Below, one piece after another: positions 17,759-20,527 of a DNA stretch of 64,000 bases. Numbering within the stretch: position 1 is the stretch's first letter; each line of letters starts with the position of its first letter. The position numbers were made by a program, and so were the translations under genes. Under the pieces are notes generated by a model. That model was not told the origin of the DNA. It ran no database searches and saw nothing but the letters and a program-made list of their open reading frames with translations. The stretch is from Leptotrichia wadei (GTDB lineage Bacteria > Fusobacteriota > Fusobacteriia > Fusobacteriales > Leptotrichiaceae). The DNA lies in contig NZ_AP019829.2 in the NCBI RefSeq assembly GCF_007990545.2, positions 2,232,001 through 2,296,000 of the forward strand, given 5' to 3'.

Positions 17759-17911
17759 ATTTTTATAGTCCCTTCTAAGTAATCCTGTTTTATTTTTAAA
17801 TTTTATTATTTATGTCAATTTATCACTTTCCAAGTACTTATTCTCCTTTATTTTTAACATAATTTTACCACATTACTATTCTATTTCCAAAAATCTTTTT
17901 TCTTAGTTATT

Positions 17912-17945
17912 AAAAAACAAGGAGCTAAATACCAACTCCTTGTTT
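17912..17945 (-). terminator. Terminator of the HTH-dynamin gene
   Basis: AAACAAGGAG (17915-17924) and CTCCTTGTTT (17936-17945) form a perfect 10-bp stem, followed on the minus strand by a run of T. It lies 40 bp after the stop codon of the HTH-dynamin gene. Confidence 0.85.
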
Positions 17946-17985
17946 ATTTTCTATATTTCTTTTATAAGTGGATAAAGTTTATTTT

Positions 17986-20172
17986 TTATAGAGGGGTATT
18001 TAAAAAAAAATCTTCAACTTCTTTTGCATTTTTCAAAGTTTCTTTTAATTCATTCACATCAGAATGATATAATTCTTTTTCTAAATTATTAATATAATTT
18101 TGCCATTCTTCTTCCATCTTATCTTTTGCAATATTAAATCCGCTTTCCGTATCATTCCAGTATTGAGTGATAGCATTGTCATATTTATATATATTTTTAT
18201 TAAACTCTTTTATTATTTTCTCAGCAATTTTTTTCTTCCAACTACTACCACTAAAGATTCCCCATATTGCTAAACCTACCAAAATAGCAGCAGCAATACC
18301 TAAAGTTATAGGTCCTCCTATTGAAGCTACAAAAGCAGTAGCTGTAGCTGTTCCTCCTGCAATGGATATTCCTAAAGCTGAAAGAATACTAACTCCTTTT
18401 GCAACTAATATATAAGCACCTAGATTTCCTAAAGTCGAAGCCCAAAAAGCTAAACCACCTAAAGTAGCAACACCTGCTAAACCACCTATAAAAGCACTTT
18501 TAAAATCAAAATTAAGGTTAATATTCATACTATTAAAGTTATCAATTTCAAGACTCTTTTGCGTTTTTAATAAGTATTCATCCATTATATTTTTAAATTT
18601 TTCAGTTGTTTTTTCCAAATTTTTTCTGTATACATCTTGGACTTCTGAACTTATATATGAACCTAATTTTTCTAAATCAGTTTTTTTATTTTTGTATTCT
18701 CTTTCATCTATTATTTTTATAATATTTTCTTCTGTTAATATTCGATTATAGTCCTCTTTAAATTTTTGTTTGGTTTCATTATCTAAATCAAAAATTTTAT
18801 TTTTAACATTTCTATTATTTTCTTCTAATAAAAACTTTCTTTTTGGTTCATTTTTCTTTATTTCTTCAAGAAGTTTAGAATAACGTTCTCTTTCATTTAT
18901 TAAACCTTCGTATTTTTGTACTTCTTTTTTCATTTTTTCTGATTCATTTTTAATATAATCTTTCGTAATATTAAATACTTTTTTTTCAAGTAATTTAGGC
19001 AAATTCTCTATTGTATTTTTTAATTCTTTTTCAAAATTTTCTCTTAAATCTTCAATATCAATTGCATATGTAAAAAATCTCTTTCTTAAATCTTTTTTTG
19101 TAAATATTTTCTTTGAATTATATGAGTATCTCTCCCAAAAAGAATCAGCGACTGTGTCAGCAAATCTATCACAACCACTATCACATATATTTTTTAAATC
19201 TGTTCTAGGATTTATATGATGAGCATGTGTTGCGACTATAAATAAATTAGACATTGGAGATAAACCCGTTCCTTCTGTTTCTTCTAAGGGTGACAACACT
19301 TCAAGCGCTTCTTTTAAATAATTAGCATCTTCAATTTGTAAAAACCCTGAGGCTTGAGATAAATATACTAAAACATCAGCTTTTAATTGTGCTTGATTTG
19401 CAGCTATATTATCACTTTCAATTCCAGCAGTAATACCAGGTATATCCAAAATATCACAGTTTTTTAAAATAGGAGAATCTACAAATAATACTGCTGAACC
19501 AACATCTTTATTATAATCATGTCCTTTTCTAACTCCATATTGAGATAATATCTCTGCATTCCCACTAGCAATTTTCCATTCTCTACAATATTTTTCATCG
19601 TACAGTCTAGTGTCATCCCACTCTGTATTTTTACCTTTTCTAAAAATCCATAGTTCATCTTCAATATAATCAGGTCTCTCTAATATATCCTTAACATAGA
19701 CAATAATAGATGTTGTAGGTGTCCAATTTGTAGGCATTTTTTCTTTACCTATTAAAGCATTAATCATAGTACTTTTTCCTGAATCTGATTTTCCAGAAAA
19801 AACAATTCTCGGCTTTCGTGTTATTCCTTCAATATTTTTTCTTAAATCTTCTATTTTACTGATATAATTTTGATTATTTTTAGGAAAAAAATCCTTGATG
19901 TAATTTATTATAGTATTTTTTATATAACGAACTTTATCCCAACAATCATTAATAGTTAGTTCATGAGGAATATCTTTTTTATAATTTGCTAGTTCATCTA
20001 ATGACTTTCCTGTCCTTTTTGCTAATACAACTAATTCTTCTAATGATATTGTATCTAAATTTTGTTCTAATCTTGAAATTCTATCTTGTCTGACACTTAT
20101 TAGTTCAGCTAATTCATTTTGTGTTAATTTTAAATAAGTTTCTCTAAAATCTTTTAAATTAAATTTTGTCAT
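17986..20172 (-). CDS. XRE-type HTH fused to a dynamin-like GTPase
   Basis: A 728-aa fusion. Residues of about 8-63 form an XRE/Cro helix-turn-helix (LTQNELAELISVRQDRISRL, ending GKSLDELANY). From about 119 there is a dynamin-superfamily GTPase domain: G1 GKSDSGKST at 127-135, a switch I threonine in NWTPTTS at 149-155, G3 DIPG at 243-246, and a FIVATHAHHI segment where the NKxD-type G4 would be. Residues of about 385-545 are charged and coiled-coil-like. A Gly/Ala-rich hydrophobic hairpin follows at about 555-645 (FIGGLAGVATLGG to LVGLAIWGIFSG), the kind of segment bacterial dynamins insert into membranes, and then a helical tail. The start follows AAAGGAGAAGTAAA. It has its own promoter and terminator, so it is monocistronic. 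Function is unknown; membrane remodelling or phage defence are inferences. Confidence 0.85.
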   Translation of the reverse strand: MTKFNLKDFRETYLKLTQNELAELISVRQDRISRLEQNLDTISLEELVVLAKRTGKSLDELANYKKDIPHELTINDCWDKVRYIKNTIINYIKDFFPKNNQNYISKIEDLRKNIEGITRKPRIVFSGKSDSGKSTMINALIGKEKMPTNWTPTTSIIVYVKDILERPDYIEDELWIFRKGKNTEWDDTRLYDEKYCREWKIASGNAEILSQYGVRKGHDYNKDVGSAVLFVDSPILKNCDILDIPGITAGIESDNIAANQAQLKADVLVYLSQASGFLQIEDANYLKEALEVLSPLEETEGTGLSPMSNLFIVATHAHHINPRTDLKNICDSGCDRFADTVADSFWERYSYNSKKIFTKKDLRKRFFTYAIDIEDLRENFEKELKNTIENLPKLLEKKVFNITKDYIKNESEKMKKEVQKYEGLINERERYSKLLEEIKKNEPKRKFLLEENNRNVKNKIFDLDNETKQKFKEDYNRILTEENIIKIIDEREYKNKKTDLEKLGSYISSEVQDVYRKNLEKTTEKFKNIMDEYLLKTQKSLEIDNFNSMNINLNFDFKSAFIGGLAGVATLGGLAFWASTLGNLGAYILVAKGVSILSALGISIAGGTATATAFVASIGGPITLGIAAAILVGLAIWGIFSGSSWKKKIAEKIIKEFNKNIYKYDNAITQYWNDTESGFNIAKDKMEEEWQNYINNLEKELYHSDVNELKETLKNAKEVEDFFLNTPL

Positions 20173-20203
20173 TTTACTTCTCCTTTACATTGTAATATTT
20201 AAA

Positions 20204-20213
20204 AAGTTAACTT
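20204..20213. promoter_or_regulatory. Palindrome between promoter and start of the HTH-dynamin gene
   Basis: AAGTTAACTT is a perfect 10-bp palindrome lying between the -10 box and the ribosome site, a classic place for a repressor operator. The encoded protein carries an XRE HTH, so autoregulation is plausible. A second inverted repeat, ATATGC-N6-GCATAT, lies upstream of the -35 box at about 20271-20288. Confidence 0.4.
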
Positions 20214-20225
20214 CTTATTTTCTGT

Positions 20226-20254
20226 ATAATATCATACAAACAAAGTTTTGTCAA
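20226..20254 (-). promoter_or_regulatory. Sigma-70 promoter of the HTH-dynamin gene
   Basis: On the minus strand, a consensus -35 TTGACA (20249-20254) and a -10 TATTAT (20226-20231) are separated by 17 bp. The -10 is about 54 bp upstream of the ATG. Confidence 0.85.
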
Positions 20255-20384
20255 TAATTTTGATAAAAAATATGCAATTTGGCATATTTATAATTTAAAA
20301 AATTGAATTTATCGTTTTAAATCTTATTTTATATCCCTAAAATGAAATATTTTAATGACATTGGAGAACATCACAAAACTTTAC

Positions 20385-20420
20385 AAAAAAAATACCCCAG
20401 CCAACGAAGACTAGAGTATC
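20385..20420 (-). terminator. Terminator of the flavin reductase gene
   Basis: On the minus strand, ATACTCTAGTC pairs with GGCTGGGGTAT (11 bp including G-U pairs) around a UUCG-containing loop, followed by TTTTTTTT. It lies about 105 bp after the flavin reductase stop codon. Confidence 0.8.
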
Positions 20421-20527
20421 TTTTTCACCTTTTTTACAATTAATTATGAATAAAAATATTTCTTTTTTCATTCAAAATTACTGCACAATCTCTATTTTTT
20501 ATTTTACAATATAAATTTACCGTTTTT

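Follow-up and report, generated by a model that had tools for sequence, protein, structure and literature searches.

A dynamin-like protein of Leptotrichia wadei with an N-terminal XRE-type HTH domain and a conserved operator-like site upstream of its gene

Introduction

Why would a bacterial dynamin-like GTPase carry a DNA-binding domain on the same polypeptide, and what does such a protein do for its host? The question is raised by one gene of Leptotrichia wadei, located in a 64,000-nucleotide stretch of contig NZ_AP019829.2 (hereafter the window). An earlier note, made from the letters of this DNA, described an XRE-HTH/dynamin fusion and proposed a one-gene system that represses itself through its HTH and inserts a hydrophobic hairpin in a membrane. 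Among described dynamins, we know of none that combines a DNA-binding domain of its own with a conserved operator. No HTH-dynamin was found in the open-licence literature, nor any description there of the HTH, operator, or nuclease operon of such dynamins.

Results

The gene is a single open reading frame of 728 amino acids on the minus strand (17986-20172), and the proposed fusion was borne out. An XRE-type HTH domain was found at residues 6-61 (19990-20157, minus strand; Pfam HTH_3, E 1.2e-8) and a Dynamin_N G domain at residues 123-291 (19300-19806, minus strand; E 3.9e-13), both matches exceeding the curated Pfam cut-offs. The P-loop GKSDSGKST and the motifs TPTTS and DIPG were all found, and the G-domain features of the dynamin superfamily (P-loop, switch I Thr, DxxG) were present. 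K133, T154, D243, and G246 were invariant among 38 aligned sequences. The recognition helix of the HTH, VRQDRISRLE, is canonical, with S33 and E36 present in the alignment.

An AlphaFold2 (AF2) model was built from 36 aligned sequences (mean pLDDT 83.4, pTM 0.81). Its N-terminal domain had five helices, with those of the HTH at residues 6-13, 18-24, 29-37, and 44-54, and long stalk helices of the neck/trunk type were modeled at 374-539 and 608-724. Between the stalk helices lies a hydrophobic region rich in Gly and Ala (residues 556-650; 18223-18507, minus strand), which is kept across the aligned relatives and was assigned by hydropathy and pLDDT as a putative membrane paddle; it holds the Kyte-Doolittle peak of the protein (559-645) and a poorly modeled segment (584-609, pLDDT <50). 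The stalk and hairpin read from the letters were thus recovered, and the model resembled BDLP (2j69; Z 16.1, 541 residues aligned) and IniA (6j72; Z 18.2, 495 residues aligned), while its G domain had the mitofusin/Fzo1 fold (Z 23 to Fzo1). By sequence and model, the window protein is a bacterial dynamin-like protein with an N-terminal XRE HTH. Fold and hydropathy suggest that its hydrophobic hairpin may insert in a membrane.

A query of genome contigs with the single protein gave 0 matches and a query with the alignment gave 43 loci. Dynamin_N was detected in 36 of 36 aligned relatives and HTH_3 in 30, the remaining members keeping an N-terminal region alignable with the HTH. Full-length relatives were found in Bacillota, Bacteroidota (a MAG), Planctomycetota (a MAG), Pseudomonadota, and Myxococcota, on plasmids of Lactococcus, Lactiplantibacillus, Acinetobacter, and Carboxydocella, and in Vibrio phages with P2-like genes. 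The earlier note had considered that homologues might lack the HTH; spread over phyla, plasmids, and phages, the layout is instead old and mobile and no chance fusion. Weak matches in other species of the genus (L003-L005) were rejected as different small GTPases with the P-loop region in common, and a match in G038 (L058) was an ordinary XRE regulator. One relative (L043:5770-8904) has a C-terminal PLD-like domain (PLDc_2, E 8e-6, slightly under the Pfam cut-off).

A consensus promoter, TTGACA-17-TATTAT with an extended TG before the -10 (11 of 12 matches), precedes the gene at 20226-20254 on the minus strand. A strong intrinsic terminator, a 13-bp stem followed by U6, lies at 17912-17948 on the same strand (-15.8 kcal/mol); its z was -4.35 on the minus and -3.71 on the plus strand, the other strand being T-rich too. 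Both elements had been named from the letters. The terminator scan missed 17912-17948 and listed the terminator of the neighbor gene (20383-20428) instead.

The palindrome AAGTTAACTT, proposed in the earlier note as meaningful, is indeed present between promoter and start (20204-20213, no strand), at chance level. A 200-bp stretch of such composition is expected to contain 0.95 perfect palindromes of 10 bp or longer (probability of one or more, 0.59), and 115 were counted in the 64-kb window. Upstream of homologues, only the 98%-identical ortholog in G011 has a copy, and a second genomic copy sits between genes of a ribosomal-protein operon. Given the chance-level frequency and the conservation in that ortholog only, AAGTTAACTT was ruled out as the operator.

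Another site is conserved. Side-by-side comparison of homologue upstream regions revealed an operator-like inverted repeat, AAATATGCAATTTGGCATATTT in the window (20268-20289, no strand; core 20271-20286), which falls just beyond the DNA covered by the earlier note and was missed there. The consensus TATGCAAATTTGCATA was taken from L015 and L016 and sought, with at most 3 mismatches, in the 200 bp upstream of 47 loci. It was found at 15 of the 47 (shuffle p ≤0.02 each), a count that enters the near-identical pairs L016/L017, L021/L022, and window/G011 separately; the window copy is 20271-20286, and L018, L021, and L022 have two copies each. A matrix built without the window sites gave 20268-20289 a score of 21.5 bits, compared to 9.6 for the next best in the 64 kb. 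Markov sequence totaling 32 million bases reached this score 6e-8 times per base, or 1.25e-5 times per 200 bp.

The site is centered 24 bp upstream of the -35, at about position -60. The gap between site and -35 is 6-8 bp in ten loci, 16 bp in the window, and 27 bp in L036, with steps among loci near helical turns. Sites just upstream of the -35 occupy a position usual for activators, so that simple self-repression finds no support here. Contact or looping could also bring about repression from such a site. Of the self-repression first proposed, then, autoregulation through the HTH is supported by the conserved site, repression is not established, and the palindrome named for it is replaced by another.

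Of the 13 species in the genus, two have the gene; their copies are 98% identical and occupy the same place, with a gene of the ABC_ATPase class on one side and one for flavin reductase on the other. The cassette (17759-20385, no strand) is absent from G006, where the flanking genes are about 0.1-0.3 kb apart. The interval between flavin reductase and ABC_ATPase is variable (L081-L083); G005 has a membrane-protein gene there, and G007 and G009 an oxidoreductase and a TetR-like gene. The gene of the window thus forms a cassette by itself, at a site that varies within the genus. No second dynamin (LeoA) is next to the gene, the cassette consisting of one gene, and no known defence system was recognized among its annotated nearest neighbors. 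GC content was 26%, compared to 32% for the window; since the window appears to include rRNA operons, little can be read from composition alone. Comparison with the G011 ortholog gave dN 0.008 and dS 0.036, which indicates purifying selection on the window gene.

Relatives are not always alone. Eleven, mostly Bacillota, head an operon with a gene B, and 10 of these 11 also have a gene C. Gene B encodes an all-helical protein of about 275 amino acids without a Pfam family; its AF2 model had high local confidence, and the matches were common helical repeats only. The product of gene C combines a Tox-GHH nuclease domain (three were tested, with E 4e-14, 3e-14, and 3e-8) with a conserved domain at the C-terminus that consists of several hydrophobic stretches; its N-terminal part differs in L025 and L035. 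Gene D has a weak resemblance to SUKH immunity proteins (best E 6e-4, below the Pfam cut-off). In L016, one ORF matched both B and D, and C was missing. From sequence, the B-C-D operon behind HTH-dynamins is a candidate for an undescribed defence or toxin-immunity system. B-C-D cassettes were located at L015:5188-7604, L017:4880-7283, L021:10236-12655, L028:7476-9860, L031:10141-12562, and L036:10239-12632. Proteins of ~285 and ~490 amino acids, without a clear Pfam family, adjoin HTH-dynamins in Lactococcus plasmids and Lachnospiraceae MAGs (L008:4175-6524, L012:10988-13337, L023:5142-7459, and L024:5037-7354).

Genes B, C, and D are absent downstream of the window gene, and 33 genomes of the family of the window had no B or C matches in a search run without a positive control. 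The gene therefore stands alone in this genome, as the earlier note had it, and its description as a one-gene system fits the window and fails for the family, in which 11 homologues head a conserved multi-gene operon. These operons indicate another possible scenario. HTH-dynamins could be mainly transcriptional self-activators or switches of a toxin operon, the dynamin part coupling GTP or membrane state to DNA binding, with the window copy an orphan regulator left after loss of B-C-D. The same operator-like site was found in 7 of the 11 operon-bearing relatives, in activator-like positions, and parsimony on an unrooted tree gave 5 B-C-D state changes, compatible with loss in the subclade of the window. 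However, the other members of that subclade (L013, L020, L023, and L024) are also without B-C-D, and purifying selection acts on the window gene, whose stalk and hairpin are intact, so that the dynamin part has been retained even where the operon is missing. We consider this scenario unlikely, if worth keeping in view.

Operator and HTH vary within the family. In a subgroup with another recognition helix (L048, L050, L052, and phage L011), TTAGACAAATTTGTCTAA replaces TATGCAAATTTGCATA, and by inspection copies of the TTAGACAAATTTGTCTAA type flank the promoter on both sides in L011 and L050. On the tree, 3.7 of 6 independent pairs agreed with an association of HTH and operator and 0 were against (p 0.125), a one-directional trend that is not significant, the independent pairs being too few. 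The canonical recognition helix of the window protein is not universal, its serine being lost in 11 relatives, and neither TATGCAAATTTGCATA nor TTAGACAAATTTGTCTAA was found upstream of these 11. The TATGC site is absent from about two thirds of homologue loci. Since the site is so often missing and the HTH fold is kept in the 11 members with a degenerate helix, DNA binding cannot be essential to the family.

The retained fold suggests a role beyond DNA binding, and together with the many members without a recognizable site it could mean that the XRE domain serves for sensing or docking (with phage DNA, a repressor-like protein of a phage, or a partner as the target) and not for autoregulation, the site being bound by another XRE regulator of the host. 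Against this, the same site recurs before HTH-dynamin genes of separate phyla and differs between HTH subgroups. TATGC(N6)GCATA has two copies in the 2.34-Mb genome, the other within a 545-codon open frame, and so does not mark a wider regulon of the host. We regard this alternative as quite improbable.

Neighbor proteins of the relatives, selected by eye and with no background rate, were scanned for defence functions. In L016, ThsA (E 8e-201) and ThsB (E 1e-67) of Thoeris are encoded upstream, L006 is near Gabija GajB (E 3e-198), and in L027 the HTH-dynamin is preceded, on its own strand, by a pAgo (E 3.5e-300), a PDC-S18 protein, and a further GTPase. In L027:3394-10205, the PDC-S18, pAgo, GTPase (with a DUF697-like part), and HTH-dynamin genes follow one another with short gaps; this row may be an Argonaute system whose effector is a pair of dynamins. 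Genes of Tn7-like type were found near others, with TnsA in L018 and L026, a TnsB-like transposase in L026, and TnsD/TniQ in L029, where TnsA- and TnsB-like genes were identified by similarity. Transposons of the Tn7-like type are known to carry defence genes (PMC8649781). In the neighborhoods that the earlier note had suggested checking, relatives were found to be mobile and in several cases to adjoin defence systems.

The Vibrio phage locus (L011:4632-7528) pairs its HTH-dynamin with a 179-aa gene common to Marinomonas L051 and has two TTAGACA-type repeats around the promoter. In viral contigs, no relatives of the dynamin, B, or C were found (the B and C searches having no positive control), and a scan for the operator pattern matched 35 contigs. 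One could also propose a housekeeping dynamin that maintains membranes, has its own regulator, and bears no relation to phage, since LeoABC has been connected with vesicle release instead of defence (Michie 2014, PMC4159319) and IniA to the response to drugs (PMC6715688), but this is the least probable of the readings for a gene of 2 in 13 species whose site is empty or otherwise occupied elsewhere in the genus and whose relatives ride on plasmids, phages, and Tn7-like elements.

Discussion

Taken together, the architecture, fold, conserved operator-like site, mobility, defence-rich surroundings of several relatives, and precedent of DynA point to a single-polypeptide, autoregulated dynamin-like protein, a variant of the LeoBC/Eleos type carried as a mobile accessory gene and most likely anti-phage. 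We hold this explanation to be probable, with considerable room for doubt. The HTH is degenerate in 11 relatives, about two thirds of loci are without the TATGC site, and the defence neighbors were chosen by eye. No known defence system was identified among the annotated nearest neighbors of the window copy, and LeoABC has been tied to vesicle release. A part in phage defence is inferred, and operator occupancy, its sign, membrane insertion, and a phage trigger are presumed.

In the explanation that we prefer, the XRE domain, presumably as a dimer, would sit in the resting cell on TATGC(N6)GCATA just upstream of its own -35, and its binding would set expression of the gene and, in relatives having one, of the nuclease operon behind it. 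Infection or another insult that perturbs the membrane would cause GTP-dependent oligomers to move there and insert the Gly/Ala-rich hairpin, so that the membrane is tethered, sealed, or broken. Departure of the dynamin from the DNA would in turn change expression of the locus.

A bolder version, which we offer as tentative and rather doubtful, is that HTH-dynamins are membrane-to-gene switches that are on the operator at rest and on the membrane under phage damage, so that membrane attack resets transcription of the dynamin. If true, membrane attack would also reset transcription of a membrane-anchored GHH nuclease with SUKH-like immunity in the operon-bearing relatives, and the dynamin would be sensor, transcription factor, and effector of a new type of defence system. 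A protein that shuttles between promoter and membrane would be a one-molecule path from membrane damage to gene expression, and shuttling would give a simple test of how phage infection switches on bacterial dynamins. The operator offers an immediate molecular handle.

Several known systems share parts of this arrangement. In the excerpted text of PMC8844932, DynA of B. subtilis goes to the membrane on phage infection, with lysis delayed, and is a two-headed tandem fusion for which no HTH is described; the window protein has an XRE HTH. Nostoc BDLP1 (PDB 2j68, 2j69) and mycobacterial IniA (6j72) share the fold of G domain, neck, trunk, and paddle with the window model, but at 13% identity and in alignments that begin at model residue 69 or later, past the HTH. 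Tox-GHH with Imm-SUKH is a known polymorphic toxin-immunity pairing (Zhang 2012, PMC3482391), which gene C (Tox-GHH, E 4e-14) and the weakly SUKH-like gene D of the relatives resemble. The toxin of the relatives differs in its conserved C-terminal hydrophobic domain, in having no recognized secretion leader, and in its tie to an HTH-dynamin and a helical protein, and the excerpted text of PMC3482391 makes no mention of "dynamin".

The PADLOC profile for LeoBC matched 35 of the 36 relatives and that for LeoA 33; LeoBC matched the window protein at E 8.2e-22, over two separate stretches. Eleos is composed of LeoA and LeoBC, as the PADLOC names also have it. The window system is a single gene, and with no second dynamin encoded alongside, the locus does not qualify as Eleos. 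What it shares with Eleos/LeoABC (LeoBC PDLC03841, LeoA PDLC03839; PMC4159319) is the dynamin G domain, the stalk, and the hydrophobic tip. In contrast, the LeoBC profile has no room for the N-terminal XRE HTH, its P-loop being near position 79, and the operator-like site of the HTH-dynamins and the nuclease-immunity operon of their relatives further set them apart from Eleos. Our verdict, at the level of sequence, is that the window protein is related to LeoBC/Eleos and is best described as an autoregulated variant of the Eleos/LeoBC-like dynamins.
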